In this document: piece by piece, positions 41,937 through 56,433 of the stretch
How positions within the stretch are numbered: the first letter of the stretch is position 1
Layout: every line of letters begins with the position of its first letter
NCBI GenBank assembly: GCA_016218865.1
Contig: JACRCU010000484.1
Span: 1 to 56,654 of the forward strand
Source of the DNA: Deltaproteobacteria bacterium
Lineage (GTDB): Bacteria; Myxococcota_A; UBA9042
Length of the DNA: 56,654 nt
Direction: 5' to 3'
Position numbers and translations under genes: made by a program
Notes under the pieces: generated by a model
Databases searched by the model: none
Told to the model about the DNA's origin: nothing
Seen by the model: only the letters and a program-made list of their open reading frames with translations

Positions 41937-43136
41937 ATGACGAACACCTGGAGTAACTGGATTTTCAACGGCTTGCTGATTGTCGGCTTGGCGGTGCCCG
42001 CGCTGGCGCCCGCCGACGAGGCCAAGGAGGACCCGGGCCGGCCGCGCCTGCTGGTGGTGCCGCCGGCGCCGATCGGCGACGTGTCCCTGGTGCAGATCAA
42101 GCGCATCGGCAAGGGTCTGGCCGACCAGCTCAAGACCTCGTCGGTCTTCGACGTGGTCACCGACAAGGACAAGGTTGCGCAGAAGACCGACGGCAAGAAG
42201 AACGCGCCCAAGGCCAGCGCCGCGAGCAAGCGCATCGACGCCGCCGACGCGGTGCGCCAAGAGGGCATGAACCTGCAGGCAGAGGGCAAGTACAAGGAAG
42301 CGCTGGATAAATTTGGCGACGCCGTGGGCCTGTACGAGCGGGCATATCTGGAACTGGTCGACTACGGCAACCTGGCATCGTCGTACACCGGCGCGGGCGT
42401 GTCGGCCTTCTATGCCGGCCGGCCGTCGGCCGAGGTGGCGCACTGGTTCGAGCTGGGCATCGCCATCCTGCCCACCCTGGTCATCGATCGGCGCAAGCAA
42501 GACAAGGCCCTGCTGGAGCTGTTCGACAAGACCCACGAGCAGATGGACAAGCTGCCCAAGCTGAACGTGGTCATCGACGGTCCCACCACCGACGGCGTGG
42601 AAGCGTACGTCGACGGCGTCAAGATCGGCCCGCTGCCGGCCAAGGCGACCGGGCTCATCCCCGGCGTGCACTACGCGCAGATTCACGGCGAGGGCTTTGT
42701 GCCCTGGGGCACGGTGGTGCACCTGCGCGGCAAGGACAGCAAGGTGACCGCCAAGGTCGCGGCCATCAAGGTCGAAGAGAAGAAGGTCGAGGCACCGGTC
42801 ACGGTGGACGTGCTGGCAGACTGTGCGCGCTTCGGCGGCTTCCACCTGCCGGTGTGCAAGGGCCCGGCGCCCAAGCTGGCGCGGCAGGTCGGTGCGAATT
42901 TCTTCGTGTTCTCGGCGATCAAGCTGGACCGCTTCAACCGGCCGACCGTGCACGCCTTCGTCATGGAAACCGGTGACTTGCTGACGATCTCGGTCAAGCC
43001 GCAGGAGCTGGCGGCCGACCTGGGCGACCTGAACAAGAAGATGGCCGAGCTGGAGGCCGACGTGAGCAAGGCGGTCGAGAGCTTCCCCAAGGCCCGGGCG
43101 CTGCAGAAAGTGCCGGCGGTGTGGTCCGCCAAGTGA
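41937..43136 (+). CDS. exported protein with PEGA-like domain
   Basis: 399 residues with an N-terminal signal peptide (NGLLIVGLAVPALA). Residues 25-60 resemble a CsgG-like beta-alpha start (RLLVVPPAPIGDVSLVQI). A helical TPR-like region follows, and then a PEGA-like beta-sandwich at about 207-265 (LNVVIDGPTTDGVEAYVDG). The C-terminal third is alpha/beta with three Cys. Start ATG 41937 fits a GGAA just upstream; the frame is open to 41847. Its last bases overlap the start of the lectin-type lipoprotein (GTGA), so the two are translated together, which suggests a shared envelope role. Confidence 0.78.
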   Translation: MTNTWSNWIFNGLLIVGLAVPALAPADEAKEDPGRPRLLVVPPAPIGDVSLVQIKRIGKGLADQLKTSSVFDVVTDKDKVAQKTDGKKNAPKASAASKRIDAADAVRQEGMNLQAEGKYKEALDKFGDAVGLYERAYLELVDYGNLASSYTGAGVSAFYAGRPSAEVAHWFELGIAILPTLVIDRRKQDKALLELFDKTHEQMDKLPKLNVVIDGPTTDGVEAYVDGVKIGPLPAKATGLIPGVHYAQIHGEGFVPWGTVVHLRGKDSKVTAKVAAIKVEEKKVEAPVTVDVLADCARFGGFHLPVCKGPAPKLARQVGANFFVFSAIKLDRFNRPTVHAFVMETGDLLTISVKPQELAADLGDLNKKMAELEADVSKAVESFPKARALQKVPAVWSAK

Positions 43137-45091
43137 GCTTCCGTCCTGTCGTTTTTGCGCTGGCGGCGCTGCTGGTCGCGGCCTGCAGCAGCCCCGCTGC
43201 GCCCAGTACCGGGACCACCGTCGCCAAGGACGCCGGCGTCGACACCAACGAAGTGGACACGGCCACAGCCGACACCGGCAAGGTCGACCCCTGCCCAGGG
43301 GGCGAGGGCTGTCCGTGCGAGGACGACGCCGGCTGCGACGACCAAGACCCTTGCACCATCCGGGGTACCTGCGTCGACGGAGCCTGTACCGCGCCGACCG
43401 CCAAGCCCTGCGACGACGGCAACCAGTGCACCGAGGACTTCTGCAAGCCCGGCGGCGCCTGCGGCAGCAAGCCCAGCACCAGCTGGTGCAGCGACGGCAA
43501 CCCCTGCACGGTGGGCGACACGTGCAAGAGCGGAAGCTGCACCTCGGGCGCGGCCAAGGACTGTGGCGACGGCAACCCGTGCACCGACGACAGCTGTGTA
43601 GCGGGTCAGGGCTGCCAGTACGCGGCGAACAGCGGCGAGTGCCTTGCGGAAAATGCTTGCTCGGAGACCAGTTACTGCTCGCTCGGCGAATGCGAGCAGG
43701 GCAAGGCCAAGCCCTGCGACGACGACAACCCCTGCACCTGGAACAGCTGCGACCCCGAAACCGGCTGCCTGTACGTGGGCATCCCCGGCGCGGCCACCTG
43801 CACCGACGGCGAGCTGATCGCCGGTCGCTGCTGGAAGGCCATGAAACAAGACACGACCTGGGTCAAGGCCCGCGAGGCCTGCCACGCCTGGGGCGGCGAG
43901 CTCGCCAGCATGCGCAACCTGGCCGACAACAGCGCCGTGCGCAAAGTCGCCGACCAGGCTTGCGGGCAAGTGCCGGCTTTCTTTGGCCTCAACGACATCG
44001 CCATCGAGGGCAAGTACCGGTGGATCGACAGTGAAAGCAGCAATTACAGCAACTTCCACAGCGGCGAACCCAACAACGTCGGCAACGAAGATGTGTTCGA
44101 GATCTACGTCGACGGCACCTGGAACGACCTGCCCGAAGGCGCCACCCTGGCCTGCGCCGTGTGCAGCCGCTGGGCCAGCTATCCGTGCGACGACGGCGAA
44201 CCCTGTACGGCGCCTACGGTCTGCGAAAGCGGCTCGTGCCTGCCCGCCACGGTGACACCCAGCTGCGACGACGGCAATCCGTGCACGCTGGACGGCTGCG
44301 CCGTGGGCCTGGGCTGCGGCAACACCCCCAGCGACGACGGCAGCGCCTGCGGCGAATCCGGAGCCTGCCTGGGCGGTTACTGCGTGCTCCCCGCCGCCGA
44401 CACCACCCCCACCAGCTGCGCCGAGCTGCCCAAAGACGCCACGAGCGGCGTGTACTGGCTGGACCTGGACGGCCCGGGCGAGGCCACACCGACCCAAGTC
44501 TACTGCGACATGCAAAGCGACGGCGGCGGCTGGGCTTTGGTGCTGGAGGTCGACGGCGGCGCGGACGACAGCGCCTACGACAGCCCGGTCTGGGTCGGCA
44601 CCTCGCCGGACACAACCGCGCCGCCGTGGCCCGCCAAGATGACCGCGCGCCTCAAGGGTTACGCGGTCACGCCGCTCACGGACATCCGGCTCGTCTTCGT
44701 GGTCGACGGCGCGGCCCGCAGCATGGTCATCGCGGGCGGCCCCATGCCACCGGGCAGCAAGGGCCCCACTCTGCACCAACTGCTCACAGGCCCAAAAATC
44801 AGCACGGGCCTGAGTGTTTTGGACTGGGAGGCCCTGCTGCCCAAGGGCTCGCTGCAGGGGAACTGCCTCACTCAGGGCTTCCAGGTCGCGGCGAGCGGCG
44901 TCAAGCTGCGCCTGGGCATCTTTGGCAACAACGAGAAGGACTGCGACAGCGTCGACTCGTGGATCGGCATCGGCAGCTCGGGCGGGCCGTGTGGCGTGGG
45001 CGGCACGCTGGGCGCTGGCAACGTGGCCTGCTATGGCGCGGACCACGGCCCGGCCAAGGTGGCGGCGATGGTGTATGTGTATGTAAGGTAG
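43133..45091 (+). CDS. Cys-rich lipoprotein with C-type-lectin-like and fibrinogen-like domains
   Basis: 652 residues from GTG 43133 (GTGA overlap with the previous gene). Lipobox LLVAAC gives a lipid anchor. Residues about 50-220 and 350-425 are Dictyostelium-type CTDC repeats (DGNPCTDDSC and similar). A C-type-lectin-like domain sits at about 225-346: WVKAREACHAWGGELASMRN, FFGLNDIAIEGKYRWIDSE, EPNN (the Ca/sugar-binding tripeptide) and GTWND. The last 220 residues open like a fibrinogen C domain: SCAELPKDATSGVYWLDL then VYCDMQSDGGGWALVLE. All three modules are common in animal adhesion proteins. The likely role is binding of glycans or other cells at the surface. Confidence 0.85.
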   Translation: MSFRPVVFALAALLVAACSSPAAPSTGTTVAKDAGVDTNEVDTATADTGKVDPCPGGEGCPCEDDAGCDDQDPCTIRGTCVDGACTAPTAKPCDDGNQCTEDFCKPGGACGSKPSTSWCSDGNPCTVGDTCKSGSCTSGAAKDCGDGNPCTDDSCVAGQGCQYAANSGECLAENACSETSYCSLGECEQGKAKPCDDDNPCTWNSCDPETGCLYVGIPGAATCTDGELIAGRCWKAMKQDTTWVKAREACHAWGGELASMRNLADNSAVRKVADQACGQVPAFFGLNDIAIEGKYRWIDSESSNYSNFHSGEPNNVGNEDVFEIYVDGTWNDLPEGATLACAVCSRWASYPCDDGEPCTAPTVCESGSCLPATVTPSCDDGNPCTLDGCAVGLGCGNTPSDDGSACGESGACLGGYCVLPAADTTPTSCAELPKDATSGVYWLDLDGPGEATPTQVYCDMQSDGGGWALVLEVDGGADDSAYDSPVWVGTSPDTTAPPWPAKMTARLKGYAVTPLTDIRLVFVVDGAARSMVIAGGPMPPGSKGPTLHQLLTGPKISTGLSVLDWEALLPKGSLQGNCLTQGFQVAASGVKLRLGIFGNNEKDCDSVDSWIGIGSSGGPCGVGGTLGAGNVACYGADHGPAKVAAMVYVYVR

Positions 45092-45331: not shown

Positions 45332-45347
45332 TGGCACGGCGCTTGCT
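45332..45347 (+). promoter_or_regulatory. sigma-54 (-24/-12) promoter
   Basis: TGGCACG-GCGC-TTGCT matches the sigma-54 consensus (TGGCACG-N4-TTGCW) at every defined base with exact spacing, and the preceding base is T, also preferred. Transcription would start near 45358 and give a leader of about 53 bases to the small secreted protein at 45411. Activation requires an enhancer-binding protein; one is encoded 350 bp away. Confidence 0.85.
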
Positions 45348-45410: not shown

Positions 45411-45740
45411 ATGCTCACGGTCCGCTCATTCGTTTCGACACACAGCCTCAACTGCGCCGCGTTGATCGTCATCACCGGGCTGCTGCTCGCGGCAACCGGT
45501 GCGGCCGACGAGAAAGCAGCCCGCAGCGGCCACCGGACATTTACCCTTAAAGACCAACCGGTTCGATCGCAAGCCGGGCCGCAGGTCAGCCCGCTGCCGG
45601 AGCAGGCGATCACCGCCAAGCCCGACAAGCCGTCGGTGACCTACATCCTCAGCCGCACGCCGCCCGTCTGGGAATGCAGTCCGGCGACCCCCAACTTTCT
45701 GCCGCGCATCCTGGTCAATGCTCGCTCGGGTCGCCTGTAG
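45411..45740 (+). CDS. small secreted protein under a sigma-54 promoter
   Basis: 109 residues. A near-perfect ribosome site AGGAGGT (45400-45406) sits four bases before the ATG. The signal peptide is clear (CAALIVITGLLLAATGAA, residues about 15-32), leaving a mature chain of about 76 residues with one Cys, many Pro and Arg, and no known domain. The strong ribosome site and exact sigma-54 promoter indicate a real, highly expressible gene. It converges on the FHA activator gene with 24 bp between. It could be a signal, a structural peptide or a small matrix protein. Confidence 0.82.
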   Translation: MLTVRSFVSTHSLNCAALIVITGLLLAATGAADEKAARSGHRTFTLKDQPVRSQAGPQVSPLPEQAITAKPDKPSVTYILSRTPPVWECSPATPNFLPRILVNARSGRL

Positions 45741-45764: not shown

Positions 45765-47141
45765 CTACTCCTGCGCCCGCCACGCCGCAAGCTCCTCCTG
45801 CGAAACACCGAAGGACTCAATCCAGCGGTAGATTTGCTTGCGATCGCGGCCAATGGCGCGCGCTGCCGCCCCCAAATTGCCGCGATGGGCCGCAAGAAGC
45901 TGCCGGAACTCGGCGGCTGAGTCCGGTGGCCGGGTCACGCCGTCGCCCGCCGCACTGGACTGCGGGCCGGGCGTGGTGCGTGCATCGACCGACTCTGTCA
46001 GGTAGAGCGGCAGAGCCGCAATTGTCGCGGGGACCTGGGTTGCGGACAGCCCGTACATCACACGGACGACTTCGCGCATGTTGTCAGGCCAGTCGTGACG
46101 GGCAAGCAGTTCGACCACATCGGGCGACCAGCGAGATGCCCAACTGGGCGCCGCAGGCGCTGGAAGTGCCGCCTGGCAAAGTGCCATCAGGTCCGCGCGT
46201 CGTTGGCGGAGCGGGGGGACGACCACTTCGTGGGCGCGAAGGCGCGCCAAGAGATCCTGGCGAAACTGGCCCAGGCCAACCCGCGCCCCCAGGTCGGCGT
46301 TGGTGGTCGCGACGAATTTGACATCGACGCCGTGGTCCATGTGCCCGCCCACCGGGCGGATCACCGTCGATTCCAGCACCCGTAGTAGCTTGACCTGCAA
46401 TGCCAGCGGCAGATCGCCGATCTCGTCCAGCACCAGCGTGCCCCCGTCGGCTTCACGGATGCGCCCAGGCCGGGCTTCCACCGCGCCCGAGAAAGCGCCC
46501 CGCACGTGCCCGAACAGCTCGGACTCGAACAGCGCTTCGGGAATGGCCGTTACGTTGACATAGACCAGCTTGCCATGACGCCCGCTCAGCGCGTGGACTT
46601 CGGCCGCGGCAGCTTCCTTGCCGACGCCCGTTTCGCCAGTGATCAAGACGGGCCGCGAGTCCTTGGCAGCCGCCGCCAGGCCCGCACGCATGGACCGAGC
46701 TGCCGCCGTCGTGCCGGGCGCGGCGCGGGTGGCCTTGTCGAACGCGGGGTGAACTCCTGGGTCCAGCTCGGCCACGCAGACGCACCCGCCAAAACGGAGT
46801 ACGGCGCCGGATTCGACGCTTGTCTTGCCCGTGACGGGCGCGCCGTCGACCCAAGTGCCGTTGCGGCTGCCCAGGTCGGTCACGTCGAGCACATCGCCCG
46901 CGGGCAGCAAGCCGACGTGGCTGCGCGACAGCGTCGCATCGGCGACGGCCAGCAGGTGCCGCGGGGTAGCATCGGGAGCCGGCTCGCGGCCAACAACGGT
47001 GGTCATGGGCGGCAAGGTCGTGGCCACGCCGACCAGACGCGGATCCAATGCGGTCAGGAAGTGCAGGCGCCAGCGCGGGGTGTGGAGTGGTGGTCCGGCC
47101 GAGGCGAAGCGCGGCGCGGTCTGGGTGGTGGTGGCGCACAT
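45765..47141 (-). CDS. FHA-domain sigma-54 activator (enhancer-binding protein)
   Basis: 458 residues. The FHA domain lies at about 45-122, with the phosphothreonine-binding residues in VVGRE, LSRSH and GSRNGTWVDG. The AAA+ domain follows: Walker A GETGVGKE (169-176), sigma-54 contact loop GAFSGA (215-220, usual form GAFTGA), Walker B GGTLVLDEIGDL (233-244) and RQRRAD. A Fis-type helix-turn-helix is at about 420-441 (GNLGAAARAIGRDRKQIYRW). There is no receiver domain, so the input is expected to be Ser/Thr phosphorylation rather than a histidine kinase. It is the obvious candidate to activate the two sigma-54 promoters nearby. Start ATG 47141 has GAGGAA upstream. Confidence 0.92.
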   Translation of the reverse strand: MCATTTQTAPRFASAGPPLHTPRWRLHFLTALDPRLVGVATTLPPMTTVVGREPAPDATPRHLLAVADATLSRSHVGLLPAGDVLDVTDLGSRNGTWVDGAPVTGKTSVESGAVLRFGGCVCVAELDPGVHPAFDKATRAAPGTTAAARSMRAGLAAAAKDSRPVLITGETGVGKEAAAAEVHALSGRHGKLVYVNVTAIPEALFESELFGHVRGAFSGAVEARPGRIREADGGTLVLDEIGDLPLALQVKLLRVLESTVIRPVGGHMDHGVDVKFVATTNADLGARVGLGQFRQDLLARLRAHEVVVPPLRQRRADLMALCQAALPAPAAPSWASRWSPDVVELLARHDWPDNMREVVRVMYGLSATQVPATIAALPLYLTESVDARTTPGPQSSAAGDGVTRPPDSAAEFRQLLAAHRGNLGAAARAIGRDRKQIYRWIESFGVSQEELAAWRAQE

Positions 47142-47263: not shown

Positions 47264-50200
47264 TCAGTTCGGGATGTGGACGCAGCCCTTGGCCGGGTCG
47301 CAGAGATCGAGGGTGGTCGGGTCGCCGTCGTTGCAGCTGTCGGGGGTCAGGCCGGCGCAGGCTGTGCAGGTGGCGTTGCCCCAGGGGTCGAGGCGGGCCA
47401 ACATGCCCTTGCCTTTGGCCTCTTCAATGCCGGCCAAGACGATGGCGCCATTCGGGAGTTCTGCCGCGCCATTGACGCGCGAGTTGCCAATCGCAGGGTA
47501 GCCGGCGAGCGAACGCGACCAGAGCGGAAGTCCCTCAATTGTCGTCTTGATTACCAGCCCGTGAGCGTTTCCACCAACAACGTCATAGCCTGCGAGCAAC
47601 ACGCTGCCGTCACTAAGTAGGGTGCCACGGTTGTAGCTCAGCAGGGTCGAGGTGCCAATCTGCTTCTCCCATTGTACGACGCCGCCGCTGTTGAGGCGAA
47701 TGAGTATGAATTTCGACTCCTTGTTCCCAAAATTCGCGGTTCGGGTTCCCGCCACAAGCCAGCCGCTGCCGTCCTTCCCCGGCCACACCGATGCCGCCGC
47801 GCTGGCTCCTAGGCCTGGATATGTTTGCGAGAAGATGACGGTCCCGTCCGGCTTGGTGGCCACAACCAATGCAACATCGATTCCGTTGTTGGCGGCCTGG
47901 CTGCGACGAAAACCCGCCATTGCCCGGTTGCCGGATCCATCAAGACCGATACCCTGGAACTGATCGCTCCAGTCGGCCTCCGCGTAAACGAAGTAGCTCG
48001 GTACCCCGGCGGGACTGACTCCAACGACCCAGCCAGAGTACAATCCTGAGGTGATATTGTTTGGCGTGAATCCGGCGAGCCAGGCCGTGCCGTCCGGGGC
48101 AATGGCGACATCGTTGGCACCGTCTTGGCCTGCCTTTCCTAAGCTGAGGTCGAAGGAGGTTGGCTGTCCGACCACAAGTGGCATTCGGACAACTCTGGCG
48201 TTGCTGCCGTTTGCACCATCCTGGCGCGAGCCCACAGCAATGATGCTGTCCGAGTTTGTTTCGATGGCGGTAAGGTAGTCGGCTTCCGGCAAGGCAATCG
48301 ATCGCGGATAACCGCTCATCTCCTTCCCGTCGGCACCGAACGCATGAATTTCGCTGTCGTAAGAGTCAGCTGGTTTGCCCGTGGCCACAACCCCTGCTGC
48401 GACGACAACACCGCTTGGAGACAGCGCAACGTCGGCCAATGTCTGGACGGTCCCTGGAACCAAGGCCACGCCGAAGGCTTCCGAGGCTCCGGCGCAGGTT
48501 CCGCCTGCGCAGATGTCGCCAGCCGTGCACGCATCGCCATCGTCGCACGGAGCCTTGTCCACCAGCGCAACGTGAGAGCACCCAGCCTTTCCGTCACAGC
48601 CGTCGGCCGTGCACGGCTCGCCGTCGTCGCACGCTGCGGGCAACTTTTCCGCACAGCTTCCTGCATCAGCGCACGCCGTGTGGCCAAACGCGTCGGCACG
48701 GATGGCCCAACCACTGCTGGCCGCGCCTTTGCTAGCAGTGCTACCTACCGCAAGCAGGCCGATTCCTGCGGGTGTGGGCGCCACGTCCCAGAGGACATTG
48801 GGGCCGGACGCCGATCCAAGTACGGACGCCCAAAGTGCATTGCCCTGATGGTCGAGGACGGCCGCCACGGAACTGCCCTGGTCGGGAGCCTGTTTGTCAG
48901 CCCCAACAAGGACCAGCTTGTCGGTGTCGAAGGCGGCAATTCGGCCGTAGCTTGCGGTGAGCGGCAATTTGGGTTCACTGGCCCACATGAGATTGCCGTA
49001 CAGGTCGCAGCGGGCGAGCCAGACAGTGCCACTCGGGAGGGATCCGGAAGCGCCGCCCGCCATGAAGTATCCACCAGGCACCGCTACGACGCTCATTGCG
49101 ACAACCCCTGATCCGAAATACCGGCGTTTCCAAAGGGTTTCGCCGGTTTCCGTCACCATTGCCGCCCACGGATCGGGGTCCGCAGTCGACGATCCATCGC
49201 GGCCCACCAGCAAGTACTTGGTCGTATCGCCCTGCACTTCCAGCATTGCTTCAGCTTCAGTACCTTGTCCGCTTCCAAGGTAGATGTTTGGCTTTACGCC
49301 GCCGAGGTTGTCAACAATCCCAAACCAGGCGTGGTCAACGGACTTCACTTCGGCTGGCTGCGTGGTGCCGCAATAGGCGACGCCGCCATCACTGCGCGCA
49401 ACGACCGCCGCAATCGACTCGTCGTTGGCACCTGGATACGAGACCTGGACCGGCCCCAGCGATGCCACCGCCTCCCCCCAGGTAATCTTCGCCACTAGAC
49501 CCTTGTCTGTACCCTGCGCGGTCCTGCTCCCGCCGACAACAACAGTTTCGCCGCCGACGTCGAGTGCAGATGCGCCTTCGTAGTCGATACCGGCGAGATT
49601 GGGCTGCCACTTGACCGCTCCCGCATCGTCCATCCCGACGACCCACAGATCGGCACCGCCAGTACCTGCCCTGGCACCAACAGCCACGGCGCGACGACTG
49701 TCGAGCCACTTCGTGCGCTTGAGGAACCCACCGCCTAATGCGGGAAACGTGGTCTCGAAGAGGCTGGGCGCACCGGCCTGGCACTTGCCCGACAGGCAGT
49801 TCCCATCCGTCGTGCACGGCTTGCCATCGTCGCAAGCACTGCCATCCGCAAGGTTGCTGTGCTTGCAGCCGGTCTTGTCGTCGCAGGTGTCCGCAGTACA
49901 TGGCAGGCCGTCGTCGCAATCTGCCAATGACTTCCCGTCGCAAACCCCAAGCTTGCCACAGTCAGTGTTGCCAAGATCGTTGACGCGAAGGGCAAGACCG
50001 ATTCCTTTGTTGCCGTCGCTGCCGGCCACCACGACCCCACCGCTTGGCAAGGCGACAACTACATAGCCTAGCTGAGCGCCGGCGCCGCCGAACTCACTGT
50101 GCCACAGCTCTGCGCCAAGCCCGTTGATCTTCGCAAACCACAGCTGTGCCTCGCCGCTTGCGGTGCCCGCAAAAGTGTACCCTGCCAGCATGAACGAGTC

Positions 50201-52738
50201 ATCGGACAGTGTCGCGAATGCACCCGGCAAGACCGACTGAGTCACTGGCAGCTTCTTGTCCCATACCACGCCACCCGTAGAATCGAAGCGAACCAGCCAC
50301 GGCTGATAGTCCGTCTGAAGGCCGGAGCTGTGCCGCAGACCCAGAGCCAGCAGGCCGCCGTCGCTGGCCGCGATCGCCGCAACGAAGCCCTGGTCCTTGC
50401 CGTCTTCGTAGAAGTACTTCCGTGGCCCCTGCGCCTTGAGATTGGTATCGATGCGCTGCAGATAGCCGCCACCGTGATTTCCTGCACCAGAATGGCCCAA
50501 CAAGCAGAACTGGCTGCCGCAGGGTGCGATGGCGTTGACGTCCGTGGGATAGGCGTTGGGAAAGTACCGCGCGCTTCCGAGTTGGATGATGCCGCTGGCG
50601 CTGACGTTGATGTCCGCGATGGTAGCGTCAGGGTGGGCACCACCGCTGGGAAGGGTGCTGGCGCCGCCGACGAGCCACGTACCGTTGGCGAACGCGTGAA
50701 CGGTATTGAACACCATCGTCGTGCCAGGCGTGCCGAGGAACTTCTGGTCGATGAGTTCGCCTTCGGCGTCGATCGTGACCGCCCAGCCGCGGACGTCGGT
50801 CGGGTAGCCCTTGACAGAGCTTTGGCCGACCGCCAATGCTCGGCCATCGCCAATATCGACGACGCCGCTGAACAGCGAGTATGCCGTGCCGGCACCGTAG
50901 GTCCTCAGCCAGACGATCTTGCCGTCGTCTCGGACCCTGGCCGCCCAGCCGGCGTCCGTCGCCGCGCCCGTGCCCTTGCTGGCCTGGCCGATCACCAGGA
51001 ATCCGTCCGCATACGCGGCGGTTGCGCCGGCTGCCACCGCGGTCTTGAAGCCCGGTATGGCGAATTCCACAGGCCCGAGCGCGGGTCCGCCCGCAACGCA
51101 CTTTCCGCCCTTGCAGCTATCCCCGAGCGTGCAAGCACTGCCATCCTGGCAAGCATCGCCATCCGCGACGGCGACGACCACGCAACCCTTGGTCACGTCA
51201 CAGCTATCCTTGGTGCAATCGTTTCCATCGTCACAGTTCTTCAGGCCGCCCGCCAAGCACTTGCCCTCGACGCAGCTGTCGCTGACGGTGCACGGATTGC
51301 CGTCGTCGCAGGCACCACTGGATTTGGTGACGTGCGTGCAGCCCTTGCTGCTGTCGCAGGCGTCGTCGGTGCAGGCGTTGCCGTCGTTGCAGTCGAACTT
51401 GACTCCGGGCGTGCAGGTGCCGCCGGTGCAGGTGTCGGCCAGCGTACAGGCGTCGCCGTCGCTGCAGGCCGCGCCGGTCTGGGTGACGCTGACGCAGCCC
51501 TGGGCGGGGTCGCACTGGTCGGTCGTACAGCCCTTGCCGTCGTCGCAGTTGACCAGCTTGCCCCCGGCACACAGACCTGCGGCGCAGACATCGCCGGTTG
51601 TGCAAGCGCTGCCGTCGCTGCACGGCGCCTGATTGTTGACGAAGGTGCAGCCCTTGGCAGGGTCGCAGCTGTCGTCTGTGCAGGGGTTGCCGTCGCCGCA
51701 GGCCGTCGCGGCTGAACTGGTGCACGCGCCCGCGAGGTCGCAGTGGTCGCCCGCGGTGCAAGCGTCGCCATCACTGCAGGAGGCCCCGACCATCGGGTCG
51801 TTGGCGCAGCCCTTCAGCGGATCGCAATGGTCGAACGTGCAAACCTTGCCGTCGTCGCAGGCTTTGGGCTCGCTGCCCGCGCAGGCCTTGGCGCCGTCGC
51901 AGGCCGATTGCAGCGTGCAGGCATTGCCGTCGTCGCAAGCCGCGCCCTTGGCGGTGGCCTTGAACTCGCAGCCGGTCGCGGGGTTGCAGGTGTCGTCGGT
52001 GCAGGCATTGCCGTCGCTGCAGGCCACCGCCGTGCCGCCACTGCACGCGCCGGTTTGGCAGGACTCGCCAGCGGTGCAGGCGTTCCCATCGCTGCAGGCC
52101 CCCGTCGTGGCCGCGTGCGCGCACCCCTTGGCTGCGTCGCAGCTGTCGACGGTACAGGGGTTGTTGTCACTGCAGTCTACGATTCCGGTGTGGCCACACG
52201 TTCCTGACTTGCAGGCATCGCCAGTGGTACAGGCATCGCCGTCATCGCAGGCGGCGGAGTTGGCGGGATGGGCACAACCGGCCGACTTGTCGCAGGCCGG
52301 ATCATCGGTGCAGGGATTGTTATCCGCGCACACGACGGCGTTGCCGCCCTTGCAGGTGCCACCCTGGCACGTGTCGCCGCTGGTGCACGCGTCACCGTCG
52401 TCGCACGCGCCGGATGTTGGAGTGTTGATGCAGCCCGTGCCCGGGGAGCAGGTGTCCTTGGTGCAGATATTGTCGTCGTCGCAGTCACTGCAGGCGTTCG
52501 TGTCCGCGGTTTCGGCATCCGTGTCTTGGACTTGGCCATTGCCAGCGCCGGTTGCACAAATGGGCACGCCGCCGGCGTCGACCAAGTGGTAGCCGGCAGG
52601 GCAGCCAATCTTGGGCTCGGCACTGCAACCTGCGCCAAGAAGGCATAGCGTGGCAACCACCGCTTTGAGTAGAGGTTGGAGGCGGAAGAGCGGGCGATAC
52701 CAGCAGGCACCCGATGTTTTCGTCGCGGAGTCAGCCAT
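47264..52738 (-). CDS. giant modular Cys-repeat/beta-propeller lipoprotein
   Basis: 1,824 residues. Signal with lipobox LGAGC near residue 38, so lipid-anchored. Residues about 83-551 are some eight to nine double CTDC repeats, each near 45 residues with the pattern CDDG.ACT.GD.C..G.C then CDDGNPCTDDSCDPAKGC. Three propeller-like modules of about 365-375 residues follow (552-925, 990-1355, 1418-1788), built of short strands such as GWAARVRDDGKIVWLRTYG. Each module is closed by another Cys-repeat pair. The chain ends with CDPAKGCVHIPN. It is 42 bp downstream of the membrane-protein gene and probably shares its sigma-54 promoter. AAGGGGG precedes the ATG. Base use in the propeller parts is visibly less GC-biased than in neighbours. 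Confidence 0.87.
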   Translation of the reverse strand: MADSATKTSGACWYRPLFRLQPLLKAVVATLCLLGAGCSAEPKIGCPAGYHLVDAGGVPICATGAGNGQVQDTDAETADTNACSDCDDDNICTKDTCSPGTGCINTPTSGACDDGDACTSGDTCQGGTCKGGNAVVCADNNPCTDDPACDKSAGCAHPANSAACDDGDACTTGDACKSGTCGHTGIVDCSDNNPCTVDSCDAAKGCAHAATTGACSDGNACTAGESCQTGACSGGTAVACSDGNACTDDTCNPATGCEFKATAKGAACDDGNACTLQSACDGAKACAGSEPKACDDGKVCTFDHCDPLKGCANDPMVGASCSDGDACTAGDHCDLAGACTSSAATACGDGNPCTDDSCDPAKGCTFVNNQAPCSDGSACTTGDVCAAGLCAGGKLVNCDDGKGCTTDQCDPAQGCVSVTQTGAACSDGDACTLADTCTGGTCTPGVKFDCNDGNACTDDACDSSKGCTHVTKSSGACDDGNPCTVSDSCVEGKCLAGGLKNCDDGNDCTKDSCDVTKGCVVVAVADGDACQDGSACTLGDSCKGGKCVAGGPALGPVEFAIPGFKTAVAAGATAAYADGFLVIGQASKGTGAATDAGWAARVRDDGKIVWLRTYGAGTAYSLFSGVVDIGDGRALAVGQSSVKGYPTDVRGWAVTIDAEGELIDQKFLGTPGTTMVFNTVHAFANGTWLVGGASTLPSGGAHPDATIADINVSASGIIQLGSARYFPNAYPTDVNAIAPCGSQFCLLGHSGAGNHGGGYLQRIDTNLKAQGPRKYFYEDGKDQGFVAAIAASDGGLLALGLRHSSGLQTDYQPWLVRFDSTGGVVWDKKLPVTQSVLPGAFATLSDDSFMLAGYTFAGTASGEAQLWFAKINGLGAELWHSEFGGAGAQLGYVVVALPSGGVVVAGSDGNKGIGLALRVNDLGNTDCGKLGVCDGKSLADCDDGLPCTADTCDDKTGCKHSNLADGSACDDGKPCTTDGNCLSGKCQAGAPSLFETTFPALGGGFLKRTKWLDSRRAVAVGARAGTGGADLWVVGMDDAGAVKWQPNLAGIDYEGASALDVGGETVVVGGSRTAQGTDKGLVAKITWGEAVASLGPVQVSYPGANDESIAAVVARSDGGVAYCGTTQPAEVKSVDHAWFGIVDNLGGVKPNIYLGSGQGTEAEAMLEVQGDTTKYLLVGRDGSSTADPDPWAAMVTETGETLWKRRYFGSGVVAMSVVAVPGGYFMAGGASGSLPSGTVWLARCDLYGNLMWASEPKLPLTASYGRIAAFDTDKLVLVGADKQAPDQGSSVAAVLDHQGNALWASVLGSASGPNVLWDVAPTPAGIGLLAVGSTASKGAASSGWAIRADAFGHTACADAGSCAEKLPAACDDGEPCTADGCDGKAGCSHVALVDKAPCDDGDACTAGDICAGGTCAGASEAFGVALVPGTVQTLADVALSPSGVVVAAGVVATGKPADSYDSEIHAFGADGKEMSGYPRSIALPEADYLTAIETNSDSIIAVGSRQDGANGSNARVVRMPLVVGQPTSFDLSLGKAGQDGANDVAIAPDGTAWLAGFTPNNITSGLYSGWVVGVSPAGVPSYFVYAEADWSDQFQGIGLDGSGNRAMAGFRRSQAANNGIDVALVVATKPDGTVIFSQTYPGLGASAAASVWPGKDGSGWLVAGTRTANFGNKESKFILIRLNSGGVVQWEKQIGTSTLLSYNRGTLLSDGSVLLAGYDVVGGNAHGLVIKTTIEGLPLWSRSLAGYPAIGNSRVNGAAELPNGAIVLAGIEEAKGKGMLARLDPWGNATCTACAGLTPDSCNDGDPTTLDLCDPAKGCVHIPN

Positions 52739-52780: not shown

Positions 52781-53872
52781 CTAGAAACGCCATGCCAACG
52801 CGGCACCAGACCTGTTCGGCATCACTTGGAATACAGACGTATTTTCCGAATGTTCAGGCCAAAGAGCCAGTACCGCGCTGGCCACCGCCAGTGCACCGGC
52901 GCCTGCCGCGGCGCCCCACATAGCCCCAATGTCGGCCTCGCGCTGACGCAGCTCAGGATACGAAATGCGTGTAAGATCATAGGTATCGCTGGAAGGAAAC
53001 TTCGCGTCGTTGAGGCTGTTGTATTGCAGCAGTGCAGCTGTCGCCACACCGATTGCCACGGCTCCGGCCGCAACCGCAGCCCATCGAACCATGGAACGGC
53101 TGGCAGCCGGAGCCGCCGCACATTCGGCTTGGCTCGCGATCGCGGTGCAGCTGGTCGCCGCAGCTTCGCCGGCCGCCGGCAGCATCGCGACGCGAGCCGC
53201 ACAGGCCTGCTTGGCTTGTTGCAGTGCATTGTTGTGCGCTGCAAGGCGATCCGCCGCACAAGCGGTTTCCGCCAAACACGACGACGACGACGCCACCGCA
53301 TGGTCGGCAAGGGCAAGTTGCTGGTCCACCGGAAGGTCGGCGGCCTTGCCGCATTCCAGCCACTTGGCTGCGGCCGAGCAGGACTGCTTGCGCTCATCGA
53401 AGGCAGCGGCCACGGCGTCGCAGGGAAGCTCACAAATCTCTTTGGTTGCTGCCCTGTTGCAGGCCTCGCGCACCGCTGGCGTCTGCAGGATGTCCGCCAC
53501 GATCGCGAACGAGCTGCGCCGGGCGCAGGCGGCAACGGCCATGGAGGCGTGCTGTCCGCACAAGGCCGGCTGATGGCGGTTGGCCTGGGCGGCGGCGTAC
53601 CAGAGCTCGATGGCCTTGGCCAGACGCAGCATACGGCCGCGCTCTCCCAGTGCCACGGCGCGAACCGACAATTCGTCGTGAAGCGCGGCCGCTTCGCCAT
53701 ACCTGCGGGCGGCCTCGAACTCGTTGGCCTGTTTCACCACAGGCGCGAGACACGCCACCTCGCCCGCAGCAATGCACTGCTCGGCTTCGCTGTCGAGCGC
53801 CGCGGCCTGGCCGGCATCGAAGACGATGGCAAGGAGGGCAAGAGCTAGCGCATAGACGAGCCGTGTGGGCAT
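52781..53872 (-). CDS. exported membrane protein of unknown function, first gene of the sigma-54 operon
   Basis: 363 residues. Signal peptide at 1-25 (LVYALALALLAIVFDAGQAA). The middle is helical with many paired Cys (for example CNRAATKEICELPC), suggesting disulfide-linked helical hairpins outside the cytoplasm. Two membrane segments lie near the C-terminus, about 273-294 (AAVAAGAVAIGVATAALL) and 325-345 (AMWGAAAGAGALAVASAVLALW, shown in part: GAAAGAGALAVASAVLAL). GAGGT sits five bases before ATG 53872. The exact sigma-54 promoter is 55 bp upstream. The giant lipoprotein gene follows at once, so the two products may act together at the surface. Confidence 0.8.
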   Translation of the reverse strand: MPTRLVYALALALLAIVFDAGQAAALDSEAEQCIAAGEVACLAPVVKQANEFEAARRYGEAAALHDELSVRAVALGERGRMLRLAKAIELWYAAAQANRHQPALCGQHASMAVAACARRSSFAIVADILQTPAVREACNRAATKEICELPCDAVAAAFDERKQSCSAAAKWLECGKAADLPVDQQLALADHAVASSSSCLAETACAADRLAAHNNALQQAKQACAARVAMLPAAGEAAATSCTAIASQAECAAAPAASRSMVRWAAVAAGAVAIGVATAALLQYNSLNDAKFPSSDTYDLTRISYPELRQREADIGAMWGAAAGAGALAVASAVLALWPEHSENTSVFQVMPNRSGAALAWRF

Positions 53873-53926: not shown

Positions 53927-53942
53927 AGCAAGATGCGTGCCA
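53927..53942 (-). promoter_or_regulatory. sigma-54 (-24/-12) promoter
   Basis: Read on the minus strand: TGGCACG-CATC-TTGCT, again an exact match with correct spacing and a leading T. The predicted start of transcription is near 53916, giving a leader of about 44 bases to the membrane-protein gene. No other exact match was noticed outside this locus when reading the intergenic regions. Confidence 0.87.
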
Positions 53943-54258: not shown

Positions 54259-56433
54259 TCAATGGCAAAGCGGATCACTAGGGAAACAGTCGCACAGGTC
54301 TTCCAAGCTCGCCTTGTTCCTATCGACGATGCAGTGGCAGCGGTAGTCCTTGTGCGATGGGCAACGCGTTTTCGCGCACTTGCACCATGGGCCGTGGGGC
54401 GGTCCCGCAGCTGGCGCGGCACAGTCGAAGTCCCGGCATGGACAGTGCGCGGAGTCGGCGTCGGGGCACTTGTCGCACCACGCCTTCACGTTCGGGCAGA
54501 ACTGAGCGCACAAGACGGCCGGATCGGAGGATTTGCACGGGTCTGGGGGTGGACACCGCGCCGGATCGCGGTCGACGCACGCTTTGCACCATTCCGCATT
54601 GGGCGCATCCGAGCAGTTGGAGCAGTAAAGCTCCTTGGACTTCGAGGCGCAGGTGCTGCACCAGTGCGAGCGGTCGTCGGCGCAAAATTGCTTGCAAAAC
54701 AGCGCGGGATCCTGGGCCTTGCACGGATCGTCCGACGGACACTTGGACGAGTCCGTGTGCGGACACGACTTGCACCAGCGGGTCTGGTCCTCGGGGCAAA
54801 ATTGCCTGCAGAAAACCGCCGCATCCTGCGACTTGCATGGTTCGCAGCGGTCCTGCCAGTGCTTGGCAAAGGGGCTGGATTTGCAGCGGGTGCACCAATC
54901 CTGGCTGTCGGTCAGGCAACTTCCGCAGAAGATGGCCGGGTCCTTGCTCTGGCATGGAGGTGGCGGTGGTGGCGGCGGGGGGTATCCACCACCGGGCGAC
55001 GGCTTCTCATCCTCCCGGCCGCCGCAGTCATCCGCATCGCAAGCGTCGGTGTCGCCACCACAATCACCGTCGTCCACGCAATCGCCAGAGTCCGCGTCGT
55101 CTCCCGTGTCGGTGTATGATTCGGTTTCCGTGTCCGCGTCCGGAGGACTCACGCTGTCGGGCTCGTGGCTTCCTGTCCCGTACCACACGATCGCCACGAC
55201 GACTGCAACGACCAGCGCCAACAGCGCGGCGACTACCAGCGCCGGCACGCCGGACTTGCCGGAAGCTGACGCGATACCTTGGGTTGTCTCCGGAGCCTCG
55301 CCGGGGGGAGCAACTACTGGGGCAGTCTGGCTTGGAACAGGTGGAGTTGGCGTGACCGGCTTGCGAAGGGGCGCCGGCATGGGTGCCGTTGGCGGCTCTG
55401 GAGGCAGCGGCTGCGACGCCAGAACGGGCGCGATCGGTGCCGGGGTGACCGGCAGGGCGCGCTGCGGAGCGGGCTCGGCAAGCCACTGCTCCAGGGCGGC
55501 GCGCATCGCAGCAGCGGACTCGAAACGGTCGTCCGGCGACTTGGCCAGAGCCCGCGCCACCAAGGCCTCCAGCCGCGGGTCGATGCCTGGGACGAATTCA
55601 GACAGTGCCAAAGGCTGCGCATGGACATGGGCAAAGCACAGCGCGATTTGGTCTGTGGCCATGTACGGCTGCTGGCCGGTCAGGCAGCGAAACAGTATAA
55701 TTCCAAGCGAATAGAGATCCGAGCGACCATCCATCGCCGTGCCCATCACCTGCTCTGGGCTCATGTAGTGCGGCGTTCCAAAGATCGTACCGGTTTGCGT
55801 GAGCGCCGCCTGGCCGACATTGCGCAACGCCTTGGCGATGCCCCAGTCGATGACTTTGACGAACGGCTCGTCCTCGCCGCCGATGTCGCACAAGAAGATG
55901 TTGTCCGGCTTCAAGTCGCGGTGGACGAAATTCTTGCTGTGCGCTTCTTGCAGGGACTTGAGAACCTGGACAGCCACCTTGACCGCGTGGCGCGGCTCCA
56001 AGCGTTGGTGGCCCGCCAAATCCCGTTCCAGCACATGGCCGTTCAGGAATTCCATGGCCATGTAGAGGTCGCCTTCGGGCGTCACGCCGGAGTCGAATAC
56101 GCGAACCGTGTTGGGGTGGCTCAGTTTCGCCGTGATGACAGCTTCGGCAAGGAAGCGCGCCTCGGTTTCCTTGTTCTGCTGCAAGCCAGGGCGCAGCAGC
56201 TTGATGGCATATTCTTGTTTATTGTTAATATGATAGGCAACATAGACGACACCAAATCCGCCGCGACTGAGCTCGCGGGTGACCCGGTAGCGACCAGCGA
56301 TGAGGCCGCCAACGCGCGGGAGGCTCGGACTGGTGGCTTCGGCGGTGGGAGTGCCATCGTTTGGACAATTCGCCTCGTCCGTGAGCGTCTCGCAAAGCGG
56401 ACAGACACGCTGAGGCAGGTGCGGCTGGTCCAC
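54259..56433 (-). CDS. transmembrane Ser/Thr protein kinase with Cys-rich repeat ectodomain
   Basis: 724 residues from GTG 56433 with GAGGAAC upstream. Order of parts: a short zinc-ribbon-like head (Cys11, Cys14, Cys23); kinase domain about 49-317 with LSRGGFGVV, Lys78 in YAIKLL, HRDLKPDN (Asp173), DWG at 196-198 in place of DFG, and GTPHYMSPEQ; a Pro-rich linker; one membrane helix at about 397-418; an acidic Asp/Cys stretch; a run of nine prolines (485-493); then four Cys-rich repeats to the C-terminus, typified by PCK.QDPA.FC.QFC..D...WC..C. The catalytic residues are present, so it should be active. The outside repeats may sense a ligand or redox state. Confidence 0.9.
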   Translation of the reverse strand: MDQPHLPQRVCPLCETLTDEANCPNDGTPTAEATSPSLPRVGGLIAGRYRVTRELSRGGFGVVYVAYHINNKQEYAIKLLRPGLQQNKETEARFLAEAVITAKLSHPNTVRVFDSGVTPEGDLYMAMEFLNGHVLERDLAGHQRLEPRHAVKVAVQVLKSLQEAHSKNFVHRDLKPDNIFLCDIGGEDEPFVKVIDWGIAKALRNVGQAALTQTGTIFGTPHYMSPEQVMGTAMDGRSDLYSLGIILFRCLTGQQPYMATDQIALCFAHVHAQPLALSEFVPGIDPRLEALVARALAKSPDDRFESAAAMRAALEQWLAEPAPQRALPVTPAPIAPVLASQPLPPEPPTAPMPAPLRKPVTPTPPVPSQTAPVVAPPGEAPETTQGIASASGKSGVPALVVAALLALVVAVVVAIVWYGTGSHEPDSVSPPDADTETESYTDTGDDADSGDCVDDGDCGGDTDACDADDCGGREDEKPSPGGGYPPPPPPPPPCQSKDPAIFCGSCLTDSQDWCTRCKSSPFAKHWQDRCEPCKSQDAAVFCRQFCPEDQTRWCKSCPHTDSSKCPSDDPCKAQDPALFCKQFCADDRSHWCSTCASKSKELYCSNCSDAPNAEWCKACVDRDPARCPPPDPCKSSDPAVLCAQFCPNVKAWCDKCPDADSAHCPCRDFDCAAPAAGPPHGPWCKCAKTRCPSHKDYRCHCIVDRNKASLEDLCDCFPSDPLCH

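Follow-up and report, generated by a model that had tools for sequence, protein, structure and literature searches.

A receptor-type Ser/Thr kinase with a predicted cysteine-rich ectodomain, encoded near an FHA-sigma54 activator in a relative of the myxobacteria

The kinase gene and its cysteine-rich repeats

The window analysed here is the whole 56,654-nt stretch of contig JACRCU010000484.1 (assembly GCA_016218865.1, Deltaproteobacteria bacterium). It carries, on the minus strand, a gene for a Ser/Thr kinase with the following features, all on the same strand.

54259..56433, minus strand: 724-aa Ser/Thr kinase gene with a GTG start (ORF; PF00069, E=1.6e-46)
56356..56403, minus strand: N-terminal CPLC...CPNDG motif, zinc-ribbon-like, common to related kinases (sequence)
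55504..56289, minus strand: Hanks-type kinase domain, residues 49-310 (PF00069, Pfam)
55183..55242, minus strand: single predicted transmembrane helix, residues 398-417 (hydropathy 3.16)
54982..55179, minus strand: acidic linker, residues 419-484, containing 4 Cys (sequence)
54955..54981, minus strand: run of exactly nine Pro, residues 485-493 (sequence)
54838..54954, minus strand: repeat 1 (R1), residues 494-532 (repeat alignment)
54724..54837, minus strand: repeat 2 (R2), residues 533-570 (repeat alignment)
54601..54723, minus strand: repeat 3 (R3), residues 571-611, running into the half repeat YCSNCSDAPNAEWCKAC (repeat alignment)
54436..54537, minus strand: repeat 4 (R4), residues 633-666, overlapping the tail domain (repeat alignment)
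54262..54498, minus strand: tail domain, residues 646-724, a likely homologue of a family-wide ten-Cys tail (alignment, profiles)

The protein has the motifs by which receptor-type Hanks kinases are recognised (AIK, HRDLKPDN and DWG). The last of these reads DWG in the window kinase (54259-56433), while the relatives that we read have DFG. The topology, predicted from hydropathy and flanking charges only, comprises one transmembrane helix, with a basic residue on its N-side and acidic residues on its C-side, and a C-terminal part lying outside. A preliminary description of this DNA had taken the Cys-rich region for the ectodomain of a kinase, kept from the membrane by an acidic Cys stretch and nine prolines, and both points agree with the kinase match, the single predicted helix on whose C-terminal side the region lies, and the composition of the linker, in which 22 of the 66 residues are Asp or Glu. 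The suggestion that this spacer is stiff fits the relatives, most of which have a Pro/Ala-rich linker of 97-154 aa between membrane and Cys domain. The C-terminal region of the window kinase spans 231 aa with 38 Cys, the Cys content of the ectodomain being 16%.

The four repeats start at C494, C533, C571 and C633 and have in common a PC[KQ] opening, an Asp, an Ala, the second and third Cys and a WCxxC segment; the gap between the second and third Cys is shorter by one residue in R1. Their summed pairwise score is 507; 1000 shuffles with all Cys and Trp fixed averaged 277 and never exceeded 370. The four Cys-rich repeats proposed earlier for 54259-55000 are therefore true repeats, whose likeness goes beyond Cys spacing. 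Over 25 codons R2 and R3 share 73% of their bases and the remaining pairs 45-57% (ungapped), identities so low that the repeats are not recent copies.

No match covering the Cys region was found in Pfam, NCBIfam or PDB sequence searches, and Foldseek with an AlphaFold model of the tail returned no PDB match (mean pLDDT 69 for the tail and 48 for the window ectodomain). A Pfam YxzE match (E 0.011, residues 402-472) was rejected, as it lies across the transmembrane helix and linker and under its cut-off; the sole PDB sequence match, proteasome Rpn3 in the linker region (E 0.05), was rejected as low complexity. The best-known bacterial receptor-type Hanks Ser/Thr kinases are the PknB/Stk1 PASTA kinases. 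The window kinase resembles them in its cytoplasmic kinase, one transmembrane helix and extracytoplasmic C-terminal domain, but differs in its undescribed Cys-rich ectodomain, where Pfam finds no PASTA repeats; the PASTA-kinase model NF033483 reaches 297.6 against a cut-off of 450 and aligns to residues 43-438, ahead of the Cys region. CTDC repeats (PF00526) are likewise short, Cys-rich and in tandem, and they abound in the neighbours at this locus. Their Cys spacing is, however, unlike that of the ectodomain, and PF00526 gives no match in the kinase, while it matches two neighbours (43121-45091 and 47264-52738).

The distinction that the preliminary description drew from CTDC, PASTA and TPR thus holds in these searches, and the strong match to a described domain that would have contradicted it was sought and not found. 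A profile of the four repeats, the check it had proposed, matches only the window gene among 379 genomes of the phylum. We also found no report of a Cys-rich ectodomain on a bacterial Ser/Thr kinase in the openly licensed literature. The receptor kinase type is known; its lineage-restricted Cys-rich ectodomain is new and undescribed, and adds a domain missing from public family libraries.

A ten-cysteine tail on related kinases

Several of the kinases closest to the window kinase carry a Cys-rich C-terminal tail. It measures 73 aa and, in an alignment of 9 relatives, has ten invariant Cys, arranged in each as three CxC and one CxxC, and no invariant His. Using a profile search, we found the tail capping one kinase in 9 of the 22 genomes of the family, namely in all 6 of the genus and in 3 of the 9 other genera. 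The same profile found no tail in 30 other genomes of the class and, outside the family, gave only one marginal match in the 379-genome phylum sample; this match, in genome G071 (E 6e-4, in a frame with a stop), was treated as chance. A further kinase of the genus-mate G013 bears three tails in tandem, each with eight Cys. In the window genome the single-copy tail sits at a contig edge, so that its kinase is cut off. Eight of the tail loci belong to named records, all of them MAGs from uncultured Myxococcales, Deltaproteobacteria or Proteobacteria, and several carry the names of lakes (for example Baikal, Erken); the host of the window kinase is a lake-dwelling relative of the myxobacteria.

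Cys-rich Sel1-repeat genes adjoin single-tail kinases at four loci (L067, 6249-7490; L069, 6177-7421; L070, 6226-7440; L073, 6525-7646), and their product is a possible partner of the tail. At L010 and L012-L014 (genus g4), a close kinase domain bears a different tail with two Cys.

In the last 79 aa of the window kinase, at its very end, all ten tail Cys align in register; an insert and four further Cys are also present. This stretch, residues 646-724, is a second unit that overlaps R4 and that the preliminary description had passed over; it is the widespread part of the ectodomain and probably the older one. A tail profile built without the window sequence scored 51% (E 1.5e-4) against the window ectodomain in hhalign, compared with 0.1% for a CTDC protein. 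In HMMER, such a profile gave 29.6 bits with the composition correction (null2) off, whereas 500 Cys-fixed shuffles reached at most 24.1; with null2 on, the relatives' profile does not find the window ectodomain. A direct search of the 21 other family genomes with this ectodomain gave weak matches only (best E 0.02), and the frames read among them were either Cys-rich of the CTDC type or apparently unrelated.

The kinase domains were compared separately. In a midpoint-rooted tree of 40 kinase domains, picked by likeness to the window kinase, all 9 Cys-tailed kinases, the window kinase included, fall on one side of one branch (support 95/88), a grouping present in 96% of bootstrap trees; the window kinase and the three-tail kinase have long branches. 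Taken together, the alignment, profiles and tree lend moderate support to homology between the window tail and the family-wide ten-Cys tail, which we consider likely rather than proven.

The four-repeat profile and the first half of the tail have the WCxxC segment in common (hhalign E 1.3e-4, 16 columns). Since the repeat profile matches the window gene alone in the 379 genomes, this common segment suggests local amplification: the four repeats look like copies of the first half of a family-restricted ten-Cys kinase tail, multiplied in the window genome, from which the ectodomain would have originated. The preliminary view of a novel-looking domain is right in that no described domain matches it, but the domain does not stand isolated, because a relative of it, present as a single copy, forms the end of one kinase per genome in the genus and in three other genera.

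Disulfides, metal binding and redox sensing

The number of Cys after the transmembrane helix is 42 in the window kinase, 24 in the three-tail kinase and 10 in the single-tail kinases, and is thus always even. At least eight contigs of the window genome encode DsbA domains. Frames with two or more tandem DsbA-like domains lie on contigs C214, C277 and C496 of this genome (G000). Even sets of invariant Cys, the predicted periplasmic topology and the DsbA-rich genome are indirect arguments, which together point to structural disulfides more than to a redox or metal sensor, and an ectodomain folded by such bonds appears most likely from the sequence; the AlphaFold models, at the pLDDT values given above, resolve no bonds.

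The preliminary description had considered a redox- or metal-sensing role, to which nothing specific points. As a metal sensor, the domain would bind periplasmic Zn or Cu through its CxC and CxxC clusters, and metal loading would set kinase activity. The three CxC and one CxxC of each relative would suit this role, and the Cys density is like that of some metal-binding proteins. Ten Cys per unit, however, are not a multiple of four and divide unnaturally into four-Cys zinc sites, the tail has no invariant His, the abundance of DsbA suggests an oxidising periplasm, and the neighbouring genes that we examined included none recognisable as metal-handling. We regard metal sensing as distinctly improbable. 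Sensing of the envelope redox state, reported to the kinase by reversible oxidation of some of the ectodomain Cys, would draw on the richness of this extracytoplasmic domain in Cys and on nothing more specific; the ten Cys of the relatives are all invariant, none standing alone or at the periphery as a switch would, and the even counts fit stable pairing, which makes this possibility more doubtful again.

The FHA-sigma54 activator, sigma54 elements and a candidate pathway

Three genes follow downstream on the strand of the kinase gene, and a fourth stands on the opposite strand. Sigma54 elements were sought as the perfect -24/-12 pattern TGGCAC-N5-TTGC.

53928..53942, minus strand: perfect sigma54 element TGGCACGCATCTTGC, 56 nt ahead of the gene for the 363-aa protein (pattern search)
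52781..53872, minus strand: 363-aa predicted exported Cys-containing protein of no known family (ORF, Pfam, NCBIfam)
47264..52738, minus strand: predicted lipoprotein of 1824 aa with CTDC repeats (PF00526)
45765..47141, minus strand: 458-aa FHA-domain sigma54 activator (domain match, homologue search)
45411..45740, plus strand: predicted secreted protein of 109 aa (weak homologue in the corresponding position of G013:C119)
45332..45346, plus strand: perfect sigma54 element TGGCACGGCGCTTGC, 65 nt ahead of the gene for the 109-aa protein (pattern search)

Further along, 43121-45091 encodes a 656-aa protein with CTDC repeats and matches to C-type lectin and fibrinogen-C domains.

The best match of the FHA-sigma54 activator in the 22 genomes is a protein encoded right beside the three-tail kinase, on contig C119 of G013; compared directly, the two activators are 49% identical. 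The kinase and activator are thus linked in two genomes. FHA-sigma54 activators of the family frequently have a kinase nearby, and at some loci CTDC proteins are close to both. The 363-aa and CTDC genes of the window were not found next to the G013:C119 kinase; that kinase has a 363-aa neighbour of its own, which proved unrelated to the window protein on comparison. The 109-aa protein and a 105-aa protein of G013:C119 are 23% identical (pairwise E 4e-7, with composition statistics off and signal peptides included). Genomes of the family encode many kinases and many sigma54 activators, so the window kinase and activator need not be partners.

The two elements listed are the only perfect sigma54 sites in the window, and both stand ahead of genes for predicted exported proteins. 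In the whole genome, 43 perfect sites were found against 5 for the reversed pattern used as control, which indicates that most of them are likely real. As the sites were sought after the activator had been noticed, this control offsets the choice in part only. At G013:C119, a perfect site lies 71 nt before the 105-aa gene that resembles the window 109-aa gene. A link between sigma54 and the bacterial exterior has been described (PMC3162934). Myxococcus xanthus has known FHA-sigma54 activators (Jelsbak et al. 2005, cited in PMC4320627); the window protein, from a relative of the myxobacteria, has the same FHA and sigma54-interaction domains, but differs in that its gene is linked to that of a Cys-tailed kinase and to genes for exported proteins preceded by perfect sigma54 elements.

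The sequence evidence as a whole gives a chain from receptor kinase through FHA activator to sigma54 output somewhat better than an even chance. The periplasmic Cys-rich C-terminus, held off the membrane on its spacer, would bind an envelope or extracellular ligand, which would switch on the cytoplasmic kinase by dimerisation or in another way, as receptor kinases in general suggest. The kinase would then phosphorylate the FHA-sigma54 activator or create a phospho-Thr site for it, as the linkage in two genomes suggests. The activator would in turn fire both perfect sigma54 promoters, which are present in the sequence and whose regulation is presumed, and the output would be the 109-aa secreted protein and the 363-aa exported protein, the latter probably made together with the giant CTDC lipoprotein.

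Alternatively, the ectodomain may serve for anchoring or adhesion and tether the kinase to the cell wall or to a surface protein, the signal coming from elsewhere. The long Pro/Ala spacers of the relatives would suit such a role, as would the Cys-rich Sel1-repeat or CTDC proteins that are common neighbours, but domain searches of the window kinase found no known wall-binding motif or family, and the well-conserved tail also fits sensing; we consider anchoring unlikely.

Returning to the sensor chain, a broader reading, which we put forward tentatively and below even chances, is that of a lineage-restricted, disulfide-built sensor family, grown by repeat amplification, whose kinases drive Cys-rich exported proteins via linked FHA-sigma54 activators. 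If true, a self-contained kinase-to-sigma54 circuit for surface proteins would be encoded in a single locus. Myxobacteria and their relatives have numerous receptor kinases, but few of their ligands and targets are known. Because this locus brings a sensor domain together with candidates for the phospho-reader and the promoters, the kinase-to-sigma54 pathway becomes directly testable.

At a related locus present in two genomes, L098 (G013:C375) and L099 (G015:C76), a perfect sigma54 element lies 47-95 nt before a plausible start of each of three genes, encoding a kinase, an FHA-sigma54 activator and a giant CTDC lipoprotein, an arrangement conserved in the two genomes.
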